Assembly: GCF_003351405.1 (NCBI RefSeq)
Contig: NZ_CP031240.1
Coordinates: 496,001-560,000 of the forward strand
Source of the DNA: Haemophilus haemolyticus
Lineage (GTDB): Bacteria > Pseudomonadota > Gammaproteobacteria > Enterobacterales > Pasteurellaceae
Length of the DNA stretch: 64,000 nucleotides
Reading direction: 5' to 3'
Positions 9,119 through 24,747 of the stretch are shown here, piece after piece (position 1 is the stretch's first letter; each line of letters begins with the position of its first letter). The notes beneath the pieces were generated by a model, which ran no database searches, had not been told where the DNA came from, and saw only the letters and a list, made by a program, of their open reading frames with translations. The translations under genes were made by a program, and so were the position numbers.

Positions 9119-12100
9119 TTACTCTTCGTCTAACTCGATATTTAAACCAAGTGAGCGGATTTCTTTCATAATTACATTGAAAGATTCCGGTGTGCCTGGG
9201 TCCATGTGTTGGTTACCACTTACGATGTTTTTATACATCTTCGTACGACCATTCACATCATCCGATTTCACCGTTAACATTTCTTGTAAGGTGTAAGCTG
9301 CACCGTATGCTTCAAGTGCCCATACCTCCATCTCACCGAAACGTTGACCACCGAATTGAGCTTTACCACCCAATGGTTGTTGCGTAACAAGGCTATAAGA
9401 ACCCGTTGAGCGAGCATGCATTTTGTCATCAACTAAGTGATTCAATTTGAGCATGTACATATAACCTACTGTTACTGGACGCTCGAATTTCTCACCTGTA
9501 CGGCCATCATATAAAGTGATTTGACCTGACGTTGGTAATCCACCAAGTTTTAATAGCTCTTTGATTTCAGCTTCAGCTGCACCATCAAATACTGGTGTCG
9601 CAACCGGTAAACCTTTACGTAGATTTTCAGCTAAACGCAATACTTCTTCATCTGTGAAGGTACTTAAATCTACTTTTTGCGAGCCATTACCTAAGTCATA
9701 CGCTTTTTGGATATAACCACGTAATTTTTCCACTTCTTGTTTTTGTTTAAGCATTGCATTGATTTGATCACCAATACCTTTCGCAGCTAAACCTAAGTGG
9801 GTTTCAAGGATCTGACCAATGTTCATACGAGATGGTACGCCCAGTGGGTTCAATACGATCTCAACTGGTTGGCCATTATCATCGTATGGCATATCTTCAA
9901 CTGGGTTAATTTTCGAGATAACACCTTTGTTACCATGACGACCCGCCATTTTATCACCCGGTTGGATCTGACGTTTCACCGCAAGATAAACTTTAACCAC
10001 TTTTAACACGCCCGGTGCAAGATCATCACCTTTGATGATTTTCTTACGTTTCACTTCAAGTTTATGTTCAAACTCTTTACGAAGTTCTTCGTATTGCTCT
10101 GCAAGCTGTTCTAATTGATTTTGTTTTTCTTCATCTGCAATGGTTTGTTCTAACCATTTAGTGCGGTCTAATTTATCTAATTGCGCTGCATCAGCACCAC
10201 TAGAAATAAGAAGATTACGAACACGAGCAAATAAGCCAGCTTCTAAAATCTCTAACTCTTCAGTTAAATCTTTTTTCGCTTCACGAAGTTGCATTTCTTC
10301 GATTTCTAATGCACGTTTATCTTTTTCTACGCCATCACGGGTGAAGACTTGAACATCAATAACCGTACCTGATGTACCGTTTGGCACACGTAATGAAGAA
10401 TCTTTAACATCAGAAGCTTTTTCACCAAAGATTGCACGTAAAAGTTTTTCTTCTGGGGTTAATTGAGTTTCACCTTTAGGCGTTACTTTACCTACTAAGA
10501 TGTCACCACCTTTAACCTCTGCACCAACATAAACAATACCAGATTCATCAAGTTTGCTTAACGCTGACTCACCTACGTTTGGAATATCCGCAGTAATTTC
10601 TTCTGCACCTAACTTGGTATCACGCGCAACACAAGATAATTCTTGAATATGGATGGTAGTGAAACGGTCTTGTTGAACTACACGTTCAGAAACTAACATT
10701 GAGTCTTCGAAGTTATAGCCGTTCCAAGGCATGAACGCCACTCGAATATTTTGACCTAATGCAAGCTCACCTAAATCAGTAGAAGGACCGTCTGCTAATA
10801 CTTCACCACGATTGATTGGATCGCCTAAATTCACACAAGGAATTTGGTTAATACAAGTATTTTGGTTAGAACGGGTATATTTGATTAAGTTATAAATATC
10901 AATACCTGCTTCACCTGCAATGGTTTCATCTTCATTTACTTTAATAACGATACGAGAAGCATCGACGTACTGAACTGTACCACCGCGTTTTGCAACAACC
11001 GCAACACCTGAGTCAAGTGCGATTGGTTTTTCCATACCTGTACCAACTAATGGTTTGTCAGCACGTAATGTTGGAACTGCTTGACGTTGCATGTTCGCAC
11101 CCATCAACGCACGGTTCGCATCGTCATGCTCAAGGAATGGAATTAATGCAGCCGCAACAGATACCACTTGTTGTGTGGAAACGTCCATATAGTGAATATC
11201 TTCAGGTTTATATAAACCTGATTCACCACGTTCACCACGTGCAGTAACAAATGCATCAGTAAAACGGTTATTTTCGTCTAAATTTGAGTTTGCCTGTGCA
11301 ATGATATAGTTTGCTTCATCAATTGCAGATAGGTATTCAATTTCTTCAGTAACTTGACCATCAACCACTTTACGATATGGTGTTTCTAAGAAACCATAAT
11401 CATTAGTACGTGCAAACGCAGAAAGTGAGTTGATCAAACCGATGTTTGGACCTTCAGGGGTTTCAATCGGACATAAACGACCATAGTGGGTATTATGTAC
11501 GTCACGCACTTCAAAGCCTGCGCGCTCACGAGTTAAACCGCCTGGACCTAATGCAGAAATACGACGTTTGTGTGTCACTTCTGATAATGGGTTGTTTTGG
11601 TCCATAAATTGCGAAAGTTGTGAAGAACCAAAGAATTCTTTCACCGCTGCAGAAATTGGTTTTGGATTAATTAAGTCTTGCGGTGTGATTGCATCTAAAT
11701 CACCTAAAGATAAGCGTTCTTTCACCGCTCTTTCTACACGCACTAAACCAATACGGAATTGGTTTTCCGCCATCTCACCTACGCTACGGATACGACGGTT
11801 ACCCAAGTGGTCAATATCATCCACTTCGCCGCGACCATTACGGATGTCGATCAATTTACGCATTACCGCAATAATATCTTCATTGCTTAAAGTGCCAGCA
11901 CCTTCACCTTCTGCGATCGCTAAAGAACGATTGAATTTCATACGACCGACAGCAGATAAATCATAACGCTCTGCAGAGAAGAATAAATTATTGAATAACG
12001 CTTCTGAAGATTCTGGTGTTGGTGGTTCGCCTGGACGCATCATACGATAGATTTCGTAAAGCGCACTGGTTTTGTCATAAGTTGGATCGACACGTAGCGT

Positions 12101-20559: not shown

Positions 20560-20583
20560 AATTTCTCCACTAAAATAAAAAAA

Positions 20584-20603
20584 ACCGCACTCAAAAGTGC
20601 GGT
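20584..20603 (-). terminator. Inverted uptake-sequence terminator beside the fba remnant
   Basis: ACCGCACT (20584-20591) and AGTGCGGT (20596-20603) form an 8-bp stem with a CAAA loop and a long U tract on the minus strand. It lies just downstream of the fba-tail remnant, so it may be the original fba terminator, now also ending the Slam transcript. Confidence 0.78.
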
Positions 20604-20626
20604 CGTATTTTATGTTATTTTTGTGG

Positions 20627-20693
20627 ATTATAAAACATCAACACAATTTAAGTCTTTGAAAGATTTCTCTAAGCATTTAGACATAGATTCTTC
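20627..20693 (-). pseudogene. Duplicate 3' tail of fba (fructose-bisphosphate aldolase fragment)
   Basis: These 67 bp repeat the last codons of fba (23667-23733) with four mismatches by eye, including the shared stop codon, in the same orientation. Similarity ends abruptly at 20693/20694. The fragment encodes the C-terminal ~20 residues of aldolase ending CVDVL and has no start. With the intact fba 3 kb away it flanks the Slam/lipoprotein module as a direct repeat. Confidence 0.88.
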
Positions 20694-20796
20694 AGATAAA
20701 TGCTGGAAGTCGTACTAGATAGCAATAGAAATTATTCATGAAAGCCAGTTAATTATCTGGTATAAACTTTTACCTTATTTTTATTAAGATGTTTTA

Positions 20797-22152
20797 CTAA
20801 AAACTCTTTTCAAAAATCAGATTAATATTCTTCTGTTGATAAGAATACATTTGAGGAATGTTACTTATTTGTTTTTTCCAAGTAAACTGCAGTTTAGGTG
20901 TAATTCCCCCCAAATGCCAATCTCGTTTCCAAACTAATAAATTTAGAGAATAAATATGATCTTTACGGTTTTTATTAAAGGAGAAAATATCTAAATTACC
21001 TAATTTAGCAACATCTTTATAATTTCGTTTAATAAATGACACGGCTATTTGTGAAGATATTCCTTTTCCCCAGTCTTGTCCCCAACCTAAACGTAGGCCT
21101 TTGCTTTTAGAACCATATTGCCTTACTTGAGTTTTTTCATTTATCCAGTCACCTCCAATATAGAAAAATTGTCGAGTGTTTGGCTGAAAAATTAAGGTTG
21201 GTGTAAGCTGTGTTAAATGTCCATTAAGCTCTTTTTCAATAAAATAATGTTGTTTTTCAAATTCAGCAGAATAGGCCAGTTGCCAATGTGGGTTAAAGTG
21301 AAAATCATATTCAGCTTGCACGCCATTATTCCAGCGATAACGATGGTTGCCATACCAACGACGCTCATAAAAAGGTTTCACTTTTATTATATGAGATGCA
21401 TTTTTATAGGCATAACCTAAAAAAGTGCGGTTTAAAATATCATCATATTCATGATTATCCCAATACTCTTTACCCCAAGCTCGATTGCCGAATAAAAAAT
21501 AGTGAGAATCGAATAAATTCAAATCTCGAGAAACCGAGAAAAAATATCCAACTCCATGGGCTGATTGTGGCAACATTCTTTGGGATTTGGTCAGTACTGC
21601 ACGATTAGACAATGGCACATAATTGACATTTGCTACATGGTTGACATTTTTATCTCGGATATAATGGGCTGTAAAATCTATTTCCCAACCTTGTCTCTCA
21701 TCTAATGCTTGCAGATAATTATTAATAACCAACAACGAACCATCAGGCAGATCTTTTTCCACTTTTGCTTTTTCAAATTGAGTTCTTGCTGCACTATCTT
21801 GCCTTTGATGAAATAATGCAATCGCTAACTCGATTCTAACTGGGTTTAATTCTGGGTTTTCCGATAAGACTTGTCGATAAAGCCGAATTGCTTCGTAATA
21901 ATCTTGTTCTAAAAAGGCAATACGCCCTTGTGCAAATTGAGCTAAATGTTTATTGAAATGAGGATTATATTGATACAGATCTATTAATCGGGCCAGTTCT
22001 TTTCCAGATAAAGAATACATATTTTCGGATAATAGTTTTTCAATCACTTTAGGATTACTTTGAAGATATGTTATATCTGGTAACGATAATGTGTGAGCAG
22101 TCGCAGAAAATGAAAAAGATGAGTAGAATAGCCAAAATAACGCTTTTTTCAT
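20797..22152 (-). CDS. Slam-family outer-membrane protein (surface lipoprotein assembly modulator)
   Basis: 451 aa. A Sec signal peptide (hydrophobic residues 4-18, cleavage probably after SATA) is followed by a TPR-like helical domain (about 60-150, with AQGRIAFLEQDYYEAIRLYRQVL repeats) and then a long alternating aromatic/hydrophobic C-terminal half (about 160-451) ending in phenylalanine, typical of a 14-strand outer-membrane barrel. This is the layout of Slam (DUF560) proteins, which move specific lipoproteins or secreted beta-barrel proteins across the outer membrane. It lies 54 bp after a TbpB-like lipoprotein, its likely cargo. One uptake core (21423-21431) lies in the gene, so it has been resident in Haemophilus or relatives. 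An AGGTG site precedes the ATG. Confidence 0.82.
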   Translation of the reverse strand: MKKALFWLFYSSFSFSATAHTLSLPDITYLQSNPKVIEKLLSENMYSLSGKELARLIDLYQYNPHFNKHLAQFAQGRIAFLEQDYYEAIRLYRQVLSENPELNPVRIELAIALFHQRQDSAARTQFEKAKVEKDLPDGSLLVINNYLQALDERQGWEIDFTAHYIRDKNVNHVANVNYVPLSNRAVLTKSQRMLPQSAHGVGYFFSVSRDLNLFDSHYFLFGNRAWGKEYWDNHEYDDILNRTFLGYAYKNASHIIKVKPFYERRWYGNHRYRWNNGVQAEYDFHFNPHWQLAYSAEFEKQHYFIEKELNGHLTQLTPTLIFQPNTRQFFYIGGDWINEKTQVRQYGSKSKGLRLGWGQDWGKGISSQIAVSFIKRNYKDVAKLGNLDIFSFNKNRKDHIYSLNLLVWKRDWHLGGITPKLQFTWKKQISNIPQMYSYQQKNINLIFEKSF

Positions 22153-22166
22153 ATTACACCTAATAA

Positions 22167-22190
22167 AATAGGCGGAATAATCCGCCTATT
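22167..22190 (-). terminator. Intercistronic terminator between lipoprotein and Slam gene
   Basis: AATAGGCGGA (22167-22176) and TCCGCCTATT (22181-22190) make a perfect 10-bp stem with a 4-nt loop and a TTTTATTA tail on the minus strand. It lies 17 nt after the lipoprotein stop and immediately before the Slam ribosome binding site, so part of the transcripts should stop before the exporter. Confidence 0.82.
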
Positions 22191-22206
22191 AACATATAAA
22201 AATAAA

Positions 22207-22821
22207 TTAACGATAGCCACCAAAAGAAGTATTTAATGCTGAATTATTATCAAAAGTTACAATACCAGCAGCTTCTTCGGCATTTGGCCCATATAATGCA
22301 CCTGTATATTTACCACCATCATTCAAGAATACACTAGCTTTACCACTAAAACTATTACCATTTAAACTAGTTTCATGCAGAGTAATATCACGAGCAAGTG
22401 GCATCTCAATTTTTCCATCAACTTTTTTAGTATCAAAATTTACATTAAGAGTGGTTTTTCCATCTGCTTGTACGCCATTAATATTTTGAGCAATGATACT
22501 ATCTCTTGCACGCACTGCATGCCCCGTATAAGTTGCAGAGCCTTTTGGAATACTTGAAGTTGGTGTTACTGTACCTTGATAACGAATTTCTTGGCGAGTT
22601 TTATCGTGATTCACCCACACACCGTAAAATGAATGATTTTGGTTATAACCAATTAGTGTTCCATCCATCGTATTACCGCCAATTAGTCCTTTGTCACTAT
22701 TATTTAAATCCACTTTTGCGCCATCTGGTGTTTGTGCAGTACCAGAACCACCACCAGAACCACAAGCGACAGCTAAGGCTGATAATCCTAAAATAGCAAC
22801 ATTATTTAATTGTTTTAACAT
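22207..22821 (-). CDS. TbpB-like (Slam-dependent) surface lipoprotein
   Basis: 204 aa. A signal peptide ends in an AVAC lipobox with the lipidated Cys at residue 20, followed by a GSGGGSG linker typical of surface-exposed lipoproteins. The rest reads as one small TbpB-type beta-barrel domain: GSATYTGHAVRA near residues 94-105, TLNVNFDTKKVDGKIEMP, and the C-terminal YGPNAEEAAGIVTF and FGGYR signatures seen in transferrin-binding protein B, factor-H-binding protein and haemophilin-type proteins. It is far shorter than TbpB (one lobe). The ligand (haem, transferrin-like or a complement factor) cannot be told. It is first in a two-gene operon with Slam; the GAGGAAA site is strong. Confidence 0.8.
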   Translation of the reverse strand: MLKQLNNVAILGLSALAVACGSGGGSGTAQTPDGAKVDLNNSDKGLIGGNTMDGTLIGYNQNHSFYGVWVNHDKTRQEIRYQGTVTPTSSIPKGSATYTGHAVRARDSIIAQNINGVQADGKTTLNVNFDTKKVDGKIEMPLARDITLHETSLNGNSFSGKASVFLNDGGKYTGALYGPNAEEAAGIVTFDNNSALNTSFGGYR

Positions 22822-22888
22822 AACGATTTCCTCATTTTTTCTTAGAAAGATTAACTTTAATTCTAATAAGAAACTAGACTCTATATAT

Positions 22889-22902
22889 CAACTGTTCAGT
22901 TG
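22889..22902. promoter_or_regulatory. Palindrome in the divergent regulator/lipoprotein promoter region
   Basis: CAACTG-TT-CAGTTG is a perfect 6-bp inverted repeat midway between the divergent starts at 22821 and 22959. TTGATA overlaps it as a possible -35 for the lipoprotein. A candidate operator for the adjacent HTH protein. Confidence 0.5.
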
Positions 22903-22946
22903 TTAATTTAAAAATCATTTGGTGAATTTATTATTTGGGTTATCGT

Positions 22947-22952
22947 TATAAT
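22947..22952 (+). promoter_or_regulatory. -10 element of the HTH gene, implying a leaderless mRNA
   Basis: A perfect TATAAT ends 6 nt before the ATG at 22959, so transcription should begin at or next to the start codon. No Shine-Dalgarno is present upstream. The -35 is weak (GAATTT at 17-bp spacing). Confidence 0.5.
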
Positions 22953-22958
22953 TACTAA

Positions 22959-23336
22959 ATGCAGAAAATATTTGATGAAAAAGCACTTTTTAGCCAACGG
23001 TTGCGAGTTGCTCTTGAAGCAGCTTCTTACGGTACATTTAAAGTATCAGAAATTGAGAGGGAATTTAACTTACGTTATGTTTCAGGGTCTGTCACACCCC
23101 AAGCAATCTATAAATGGTTAAATGGCCAATCAATCCCTTCTTTTGACAAAATCCAAGTACTTGCCGATTGGTTAAATGTTTCTGCGGAGTGGTTAAAAAC
23201 AGGGGCAAGTAATACCACCTTAAACGCACAATCACTTATTGAAAAACAAGGTTTAGAGAGTTTTCTTCAATTAAATAATGATCATAAGTATTTAATTCTC
23301 AATTTGATGCAAGCACTTCTTAAAACCTACCCATAG
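22959..23336 (+). CDS. Helix-turn-helix transcriptional regulator
   Basis: 125 aa, a small Xre/cI-type DNA-binding protein: an N-terminal helical segment (FSQRLRVALEAASYGTFKVSEIEREFN) then the HTH core VTPQAIYKWLNGQSIPSFDKIQVLADWLNV near residues 45-75, then a short helical tail perhaps for dimerisation. I do not recognise the specific family. It is divergent from the lipoprotein-Slam operon and shares a 137-bp promoter region with a perfect palindrome, so it most likely controls that operon and itself. It resembles phage-type repressors, but no phage genes are nearby. Confidence 0.72.
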   Translation: MQKIFDEKALFSQRLRVALEAASYGTFKVSEIEREFNLRYVSGSVTPQAIYKWLNGQSIPSFDKIQVLADWLNVSAEWLKTGASNTTLNAQSLIEKQGLESFLQLNNDHKYLILNLMQALLKTYP

Positions 23337-23667
23337 CCTCATCTCCTTGTGTTAAGAAACTATATTTAAAAATAAAAGAATCCATAAAATACTCGCTATA
23401 ATCAAGCTATCTTTATAGGTTCCATTAAATTTATTTTCTGTTAAACAATAAAAATAAAGACATGATAAAAATAACATTGTGTATTAGTTAGTAGAATTCA
23501 ATATAGAAGCGTTAATCCATTACTGCTATTTAATAAATTCGAAGATTAATTCCTAAATCAAAAGAAAAAGTGCATAAAATTAAAGTTACTATTTTCACCT
23601 TTAATTCAAAACAAAAGGCTAAATTCTATTAGAATTTAGCCTCAATAATTTTAATATAATTTACTAA
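23337..23667. other. A/T-rich non-coding spacer between HTH gene and fba
   Basis: About 330 bp, strongly A/T-rich and without a supportable gene. The only clear element is the fba terminator at 23616-23642. It probably marks the right-hand edge of the inserted module. Confidence 0.6.
23616..23642 (-). terminator. fba terminator
   Basis: AGGCTAAATTCT (23616-23627) and AGAATTTAGCCT (23631-23642) form a perfect 12-bp stem with a 3-nt loop and a T-rich minus-strand tail, 26 nt past the fba stop. Confidence 0.85.
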
Positions 23668-24747
23668 TTATAAAACATCAACACAATTTAAGTCTTCGAA
23701 AGATTGTTCTAAGCGTTTAGACATAGATTCTTCCATTTTACGTAACCAAACACGTGGATCGTAGTATTTTTTATTTGGCGCATCTGGACCTTCAGGGTTA
23801 CCTAATTGACCTTGAAGATAAGCTTCATTTGCTTTATAGAAGTTCAAAATACCATTCCAAGATGCCCATTGAGTATCGGTATCAATGTTCATTTTGATTG
23901 CACCGTAGCTAATTGCTTCGCGGATTTCTTCGCGACTAGAACCAGAACCACCGTGGAACACGAAGTTAATTGGTTTCGCTGGAAGATTGCGTTCTTTCGC
24001 AACGAACTCTTGTGACGCACCTAAAATAGATGGTTTTAATTTTACGTTACCTGGTTTGTAAACACCATGTACGTTACCGAATGCTGCTGCAACCGTAAAG
24101 TTAGGGCTTACTGGGTTTAATTGGTCGTAAACATAAAGCACGTCAGATGGTTGGGTGTATAAACGAGACTCATCAACACCAGAATTATCTACGCCATCTT
24201 CTTCACCACCAGTAATACCGATTTCGATTTCAAGGGTCATCCCCATTTTATCCATACGAGCGAGGTATTCACGGCAGATAGCCATATTTTCTTCCATTGG
24301 CTCTTCAGAAAGATCAAGCATGTGAGAAGAGAATAATGGACGGCCAGTTTCTGCGAAGTGTTTTTCACCAGCGTCAAGTAAACCATCAATCCATGGAAGT
24401 AATTTTTTCGCAGCGTGGTCAGTGTGAAGAATAACAGGAACACCGTATTCTTTAGCTAAAGTATGAACGTGTTTCGCTCCAGCAATCGCACCAAGTACAT
24501 CAGGACGAGCACCGCTTGCAGGTTTAATACCTTTACCCGCATAAAACGCCGCACCACCGTTAGAAAATTGAATAATAACTGGCGCTTTTACGCGTGCAGC
24601 AGTTTCTAACACGGCATTAACTGAGTCAGAACCCACGCAGTTTACTGCTGGGATAGCAAAGTTATGCTCTTTTGCATAAGCAAAGATTTTTTGCACATCT
24701 TCACCTGTTACGACACCAGGTTTCACGATATCTAATAATTTAGCCAT
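23668..24747 (-). CDS. fba: Class II fructose-bisphosphate aldolase
   Basis: 359 aa, the E. coli FbaA length. A zinc enzyme that cleaves fructose-1,6-bisphosphate to glyceraldehyde-3-phosphate and dihydroxyacetone phosphate. The metal/catalytic motif ILHTDHAAKKLLPW places D110 and H111, EIEIGITGGEEDGVD and FVFHGGSGSSREEI supply further active-site and phosphate contacts. It follows pgk (120 bp) on the same strand as a glycolytic pair. A 67-bp copy of its 3' end lies 3 kb downstream. Confidence 0.98.
   Translation of the reverse strand: MAKLLDIVKPGVVTGEDVQKIFAYAKEHNFAIPAVNCVGSDSVNAVLETAARVKAPVIIQFSNGGAAFYAGKGIKPASGARPDVLGAIAGAKHVHTLAKEYGVPVILHTDHAAKKLLPWIDGLLDAGEKHFAETGRPLFSSHMLDLSEEPMEENMAICREYLARMDKMGMTLEIEIGITGGEEDGVDNSGVDESRLYTQPSDVLYVYDQLNPVSPNFTVAAAFGNVHGVYKPGNVKLKPSILGASQEFVAKERNLPAKPINFVFHGGSGSSREEIREAISYGAIKMNIDTDTQWASWNGILNFYKANEAYLQGQLGNPEGPDAPNKKYYDPRVWLRKMEESMSKRLEQSFEDLNCVDVL

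Follow-up and report, generated by a model that had tools for sequence, protein, structure and literature searches.

Results

A Slam gene, a lipoprotein gene and a divergent regulator gene form one cassette

This work concerns a cassette of about 3 kb in Haemophilus haemolyticus, found in a 64,000-nt stretch of contig NZ_CP031240.1 that was analysed as a whole (the window, in whose coordinates positions are given below). Between two copies of the fba 3′-end, the cassette holds a Slam gene at 20797-22152 on the minus strand, a lipoprotein gene at 22207-22821 on the same strand and a divergent regulator gene at 22959-23336 on the plus strand. The first-pass annotation of this DNA had placed the three open reading frames (ORFs) at these coordinates, and checking the ORFs confirmed them; it had also named the large protein a Slam, assigned a TbpB-type barrel to the adjoining lipoprotein and credited the cassette with a helix-turn-helix (HTH) regulator of its own, and Pfam bears out all three assignments.

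The 451-aa Slam (SlipAM/DUF560, the type 11 secretion outer-membrane protein) matches PF04575 with an E-value of 6e-87, its residues 156-451 aligning to positions 1-288 of the 288 in the profile, that is a whole-length barrel, and its residues 29-126 match PF24575 TPR_Slam (E 1.3e-23; 83.8 bits against a cut-off of 35.2). Judged from its sequence, it probably moves the lipoprotein across the outer membrane to the cell surface.

The 204-aa lipoprotein passes the NCBIfam model NF041636, 'Slam-dependent surface lipoprotein' (87.9 versus 80 bits), which matches all 22 aligned family members at E ≤ 0.001, and its match to PF01298 TbpB_B_D (E 5e-14) is over the cut-off. The lipobox reads AVAC with the cysteine at residue 20, A19-C20 being invariant by eye in 22/22 aligned members, and it deviates at position -3 from the strict motif [LVI][ASTVI][GAS]C printed in PMC10075479. 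By profiles, the protein consists of a single C-terminal TbpB-type barrel (residues 93-203) preceded by a short N-terminal part, and the solved barrel relatives are hemophilin, TbpB, HpuA, GNA2132 (NHBA) and factor H-binding protein. In the family profile, the stretch that aligns with hemophilin is residues 61-204 (hemophilin 136-275; 29% identity in the aligned part), and only about 40 residues between Cys20 and this stretch are left for a linker and a handle. A cargo this short may come close to the minimum that Slam accepts as a substrate, and could help to find out what Slam recognises.

The 125-aa regulator is of the Cro/CI type (XRE), has phage CI repressors as distant relatives and matches PF01381 HTH_3 over the cut-off (E 8e-7; 29.4 bits against 23). 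From the neighbourhood comparison described below it belongs to what we call class A, while an example of class B scores 49.7 bits against the same profile. Known RNA families were also sought, and none matched.

The cassette was inserted beside fba

The insertion next to fba, which the first-pass annotation had deduced from two direct copies of the fba 3′-end, is upheld by comparison with relatives. The copies form a direct repeat of 67 nt with 94% identity, which equals the last 66 nt of the fba frame (23668-24747, minus strand) plus one base; the right copy (23667-23733, minus strand) is the intact fba 3′-end, and the left one (20627-20693, minus strand) is a truncated copy. Ten genomes of the same genus, the window's own included, were compared, the collections used here holding one genome per species. 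A second fba 3′-end occurs in two of them, the window's and that of H. seminalis SZY H1 (G002), and in none of the eight others searched, so that the insert is not carried by all. At all eight empty sites the fba stop is followed directly by a terminator and the next gene, and the sequence after the stop is continuous with that after the left fba copy of the window. The native fba terminator (20583-20604, minus strand), recognised by this comparison and by the terminator scan, now lies 3′ of Slam, and the intact fba runs into cassette DNA with its own terminator-like hairpin of 13 pairs, directly 3′ of fba and inside the insert (23615-23643, minus strand; terminator scan and fold).

G002 carries the same insertion, with 97% identity to the window over 6.5 kb and with 615 of 615 bases identical in the lipoprotein gene. 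The fba of the window is 96-97% identical to those of H. seminalis SZY H1 and four other genomes, and 90-91% identical to those of four further genomes of the genus. The first-pass annotation had taken strain Rd as the reference for the site, which is the wrong frame because the host is an H. haemolyticus/H. seminalis-like species, apparently not close to H. influenzae in the strict sense.

The same cassette occupies the same site in a second genus

In a genome of another genus (G119, genus g59), the cassette lies at the same fba spot, between a full and a 70-bp fba end, whereas ten other genomes of that genus have no second fba end and carry other terminator-like sequence after the fba stop. 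Between the window and G119, synonymous and nonsynonymous codon differences number 2 and 3 in the lipoprotein gene, 8 and 13 in the Slam gene and 12 and 3 in the regulator gene, against 82 and 8 in fba and 86 and 12 in pgk. Since so few synonymous differences separate the cassette genes relative to the two housekeeping genes, we read the cassette as recently exchanged between the two genera. As a separate observation, nonsynonymous codon differences exceed synonymous ones in Slam (13 against 8; 20797-22152 versus L111:7752-9107), the numbers being small. A recombination breakpoint within fba was also considered, as its 3′ half is nearer to G119 than its 5′ half, and was rejected, as cassette-free genomes show the same gradient.

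The duplicated fba end could also be explained by a small integrative element whose attachment site (attL/attR) is the fba 3′-end, in place of a cassette moved by transformation. Duplication of a gene 3′-end that leaves the gene whole is the usual mark of integrase-mediated insertion, and that is the arrangement seen here. However, no integrase or other mobility gene is present among the ORFs of the 3-kb insert, the lipoprotein has no match in phages and only two weak matches in plasmids (32% identity), and an identical site with nearly the same content in both genera would likewise result from homologous exchange by transformation. A search of viral contigs also found no relative. We therefore regard an integrative element as unlikely.

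The lipoprotein family is paired with a small regulator

At E ≤ 1e-20 the lipoprotein subfamily has members in 25 of the 140 Pasteurellaceae genomes searched, covering 14 of 43 genera. A sample of 295 genomes from across the order contained three with a match at E ≤ 1e-15, all of them Pasteurellaceae and one of them the genome of the window. Neighbourhoods were examined in the 24 genomes besides the window's own. By eye and from the starts of neighbouring ORFs, these sister loci occupy many different chromosomal positions, where enolase and further housekeeping genes are neighbours, and Slam follows the lipoprotein gene in 18 of them as well as in the window. In G153 (locus L126) the lipoprotein gene holds a stop, beside seemingly intact ORFs for the regulator and for Slam.

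With the exception of G076, every sister locus (23 of 24) has a small regulator gene no more than one gene away from the lipoprotein gene, and so does the window (24/25). It is directly adjacent and divergent in 20 of the 24, counting G153 with its broken lipoprotein gene, and is separated from the lipoprotein gene by one ORF in G152, G096 and G010. The regulators fall into class A (the window, G002, G119 and G011), class B (19 loci) and class C (G010, grouped without a Pfam scan). A profile built from them has only two other matches, one of them weak, among the 391 ORFs of the 24 loci. Around more distant barrel-lipoprotein loci, a regulator was found within ±1.5 kb in 2 of 22, so the pairing is rarer for other barrel lipoproteins. 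In the midpoint-rooted tree of 22 lipoproteins, class A stands at two separate places, each beside class B rows, once G152 (taken as Rodentibacter) and once G012. Therefore, the regulator has been exchanged while the pairing was kept, except in G076.

Operator-like DNA and intercistronic hairpins

The divergent intergenic region of the window contains the palindrome CAACTGAACAGTTG (22889-22902, assigned to neither strand), a proposed operator recognised by its sequence pattern, 67 bp upstream of the lipoprotein start. Both arms of the palindrome are conserved in G002 and G119, where one central base differs. This pattern would be expected 0.08 times on average in a shuffled 64-kb window, the pattern having been taken from the site itself.

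Class B regions were tested in 16 of the 19 class B loci (all except G152, G096 and G153), and a spaced inverted pair, TRAGTR-N14/15-YACTYA, is present in 13 of the 16. In 300 shuffles it appeared in 0.02 loci on average and in at most one, a number to be taken as a guide only, the pattern having been chosen by inspection and the loci being related. The operator-like sites may overlap the promoters of the divergent genes.

The gap between the lipoprotein and Slam genes (22153-22206, minus strand) folds into an intercistronic hairpin with a z-score of -4.3. Across all 19 loci with Slam adjacent, six of them represented by a fixed stretch of 59 nt after the lipoprotein stop, the gap folds better than the shuffle mean in 19/19, better than each of 200 shuffles in 15/19 and with z ≤ -3 in 17/19. 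By eye, the stems in these 19 gaps comprise about six different sequences. The hairpin may act by partial termination or by protection of the mRNA end, in either case leaving Slam scarcer than its cargo.

Other Slam loci in the same genome

The genome of the window has four Slam genes in all. At about 68-73 kb (L081:7593-13316), the gene of hemophilin, an unlipidated protein (276 aa, HphA_N and HphA_C), lies with its Slam gene and a 1099-aa ORF that resembles a TonB-dependent receptor by its sequence start only. At about 391 kb (L082:8893-10146), a 417-aa lipoprotein-like ORF with no Pfam match adjoins a 513-aa Slam ORF, and positions 9404-10037 of that locus hold about 40 copies of a 15-bp repeat coding for AEAAK-type repeats. 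A second regulator-lipoprotein-Slam locus lies at about 588-593 kb (L083:4549-9507), where an XRE-like gene is divergent from the gene of a 354-aa lipoprotein (AEETRK repeats, FHBP_C barrel), which is followed by two ORFs and then Slam.

Discussion

Based on these findings, we propose, with a probability of about 0.6, that the locus is a self-contained and horizontally exchanged surface-display cassette, in which the regulator represses an operon of the lipoprotein and Slam genes, and the lipoprotein, displayed by Slam, binds a host molecule. First, the Cro/CI-type regulator would bind the divergent intergenic region and keep the lipoprotein-Slam operon low. Once the regulator is released, the lipoprotein would reach the outer membrane by way of Sec, lipidation and Lol, and Slam, less abundant owing to the intercistronic hairpin, would move it to the cell surface, where the barrel loops and the short N-terminal part could bind the host molecule. 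The ligand would most plausibly be innate-immune (complement-type) or mucosal, and less plausibly iron or haem. Our leading guess, a tentative one, is complement or some other innate-immune ligand, because PmSLP-1, a related Slam cargo, binds complement factor I (PMC12080921). Sequence alone establishes the gene families and their order, the empty fba site in relatives, the passage between genera, the regulator pairing, the operator-like repeats of the sister loci and the hairpins between the two genes, whereas repression, dependence on Slam, the effect on stoichiometry and the kind of ligand are inferred.

Several results speak against parts of this proposal. In a simpler count of half-sites, two of the 16 class B regions (G065 and G144) do not exceed their best shuffle, and the promoter scan was at chance (17 found versus 15.6 expected); therefore, an overlap of operators with promoters can only be suggested. 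Control co-directional gaps in the same loci reach z ≤ -3 in 12 of 39 cases, so hairpins are common in these loci but more regular in the lipoprotein-Slam gap, and the hairpin of the window in this gap is not among the five terminator-like sites of the terminator scan. Six of the 24 sister loci have no Slam adjacent, and therefore a distant Slam would have to serve there. Structure prediction of the lipoprotein from three sequences was unusable, with a mean pLDDT of 30.9. The two fba ends of each species carry that species' own bases (window 20627-20693; G119 L111:7569-7638), which does not fit a simple one-step transfer; either recombination with the local DNA replaced the short fba copy, or the host's own fba end served for the insertion, and the bases hint at such overwriting or at independent use of the same site. 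Finally, class B is not specific to this lipoprotein: of the 88 places with a class B regulator, spread over 60 of 140 genomes, only 19 belong to its loci.

Sixteen of the class B places elsewhere were fetched and read by eye. Six have a lipobox-bearing ORF directly divergent, which in two of them is a larger barrel lipoprotein, two have a secreted-looking ORF and then a lipoprotein, two have a long ORF with an adhesin-type start, a label that rests on a Pfam scan of a similar ORF in L112, and six have nothing recognisable. Class B is perhaps a wider regulator family for surface proteins. The class B regulators of L141-L143 are divergent to lipoprotein-like ORFs of about 76-114 aa with an RWYK-type motif, and those of L148 and L149 lie near long ORFs with an adhesin-type start. 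More broadly, the cassette may exemplify a recurrent Pasteurellaceae class, in which a dedicated Cro/CI-type repressor keeps small Slam cargoes off, the regulator is exchanged together with its operator, the hairpin favours the cargo over the translocon, and whole cassettes pass from one Haemophilus-like species to another at one fixed site at a gene end; we put this generalisation forward as a possibility somewhat less probable than its opposite. If it holds, cells would decide when a host-binding lipoprotein is shown, and could gain or lose the antigen by transformation.

The association of some other class B regulators with lipoproteins or with ORFs of adhesin-type start would also suit a colonisation or adhesion factor like Xenorhabdus NilC, which would bind host glycans or epithelium and be repressed outside the host niche, and nilB and nilC are likewise repressed by a dedicated regulator, NilR (PMC9100927). 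On the other side, the same source describes a promoter for each of nilB and nilC, and the 6 of 16 class B places with no recognisable surface gene do not suggest such a role. A NilC-like function is thus about as improbable as the integrative element considered above, and display of a lipoprotein that binds a host molecule, with a complement-type ligand foremost, remains the preferred reading.

Haem or transferrin capture, which the first-pass annotation had named among the possible roles, fares less well. In this reading the lipoprotein would act as a receptor component of the hemophilin, HpuA or TbpB kind and supply a TonB-dependent receptor. The likeness to hemophilin is confined to the C-terminal barrel (residues 61-204), although hemophilins and TbpB, with HpuA further down, are the best solved sequence relatives and Pfam HpuA matches the lipoprotein over its cut-off. 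HphA_N, the haem-binding N-domain of hemophilin (Hpl)/HphA, has no match in the window lipoprotein at E ≤ 1 in Pfam, while it is matched in the genome's own separate hemophilin. In favour of this reading, a TonB receptor gene is reported in 120 of 185 Slam-lipoprotein clusters (PMC5449769). The only ORF of at least 500 aa within 6 kb in the window encodes a YjjI-like enzyme, and of the 18 ORFs of at least 560 aa within 6 kb in the 24 sister loci, none of the nine scanned is a TonB receptor, the other nine being judged by sequence start only. Fur-box matches are also no better than those of shuffles: for all 20 intergenic regions, over 10% of the shuffled sequences match as well (lowest 23/200). 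Therefore, iron or haem capture by this lipoprotein is unlikely. The weakest alternative makes it the H. haemolyticus-group Protein H (lph), a factor H binder of H. influenzae types b and f that is listed among Slam-linked lipoproteins (PMC5449769), and this is very improbable: FHBP_C matches over the Pfam cut-off and NCBIfam factorH_bind matches 16 of 22 family members at E ≤ 0.001, but the window protein reaches 14 bits against the factorH_bind cut-off of 200, three coding-region lph primers, the coding primers of PMC8084184 Table 2 made for one type b strain, 10810, have 0 matches in the window at up to 3 mismatches, and one of them is absent from 10 same-genus genomes at up to 2 mismatches, a failure compatible with a very divergent ortholog or a functional analogue.

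Among the Slam cargoes are vaccine antigens and complement-evasion proteins, and little on the control of their genes was found in the open-access literature. A conserved regulator-cargo-Slam unit would offer a handle on when such antigens are displayed, and the shared fba insertion a clear-cut example from nature of an antigen passing between Haemophilus-like species. No account of a regulator-lipoprotein-Slam unit in Pasteurellaceae was found in the open-access literature, which argues only weakly for its absence; the main text of a survey of type 11 secretion cargoes (PMC12282271) contains neither 'regulator' nor 'helix-turn-helix', and 'regulator' occurs once in PMC5449769. Slam clusters, the NF041636 lipoprotein model and one repressed Slam locus (nil) are already known; the parts are thus of known kinds, while their combination and spread look little described.

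Compared with the known Slam-lipoprotein clusters, such as N. meningitidis Slam2-HpuA, H. influenzae Slam-TbpB and Protein H (PMC5449769), the cassette has the same Slam with a TPR N-terminus beside a lipobox-bearing TbpB-type cargo, but differs from the clusters described there by its Cro/CI-type regulator, its short cargo, the lack of a visible TonB receptor and the fba site shared between genera. It resembles PmSLP-1/Slam of P. multocida in being a one-barrel Slam-dependent lipoprotein system in Pasteurellaceae, and PmSLP is found in about 65% of isolates (PMC10075479). However, the lipoprotein gene lies downstream of slam in the PmSLP locus and upstream of Slam in the cassette and in the 18 of the 24 sister loci that have Slam adjacent, and PmSLP-1 is longer, its 317 or more residues including a disordered N-terminus and a six-strand handle, against 204 aa here. 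Identity with PmSLP was considered and set aside by this comparison of descriptions, and no row of the profile comparison is named PmSLP. The nil locus of Xenorhabdus nematophila, with the Slam NilB, the cargo NilC and the repressor NilR (PMC9100927), likewise joins a Slam and its cargo to a dedicated regulator; there, nilB and nilC have their separate promoters and Lrp co-represses, whereas the cassette appears to combine a single lipoprotein-Slam operon with a divergent regulator.

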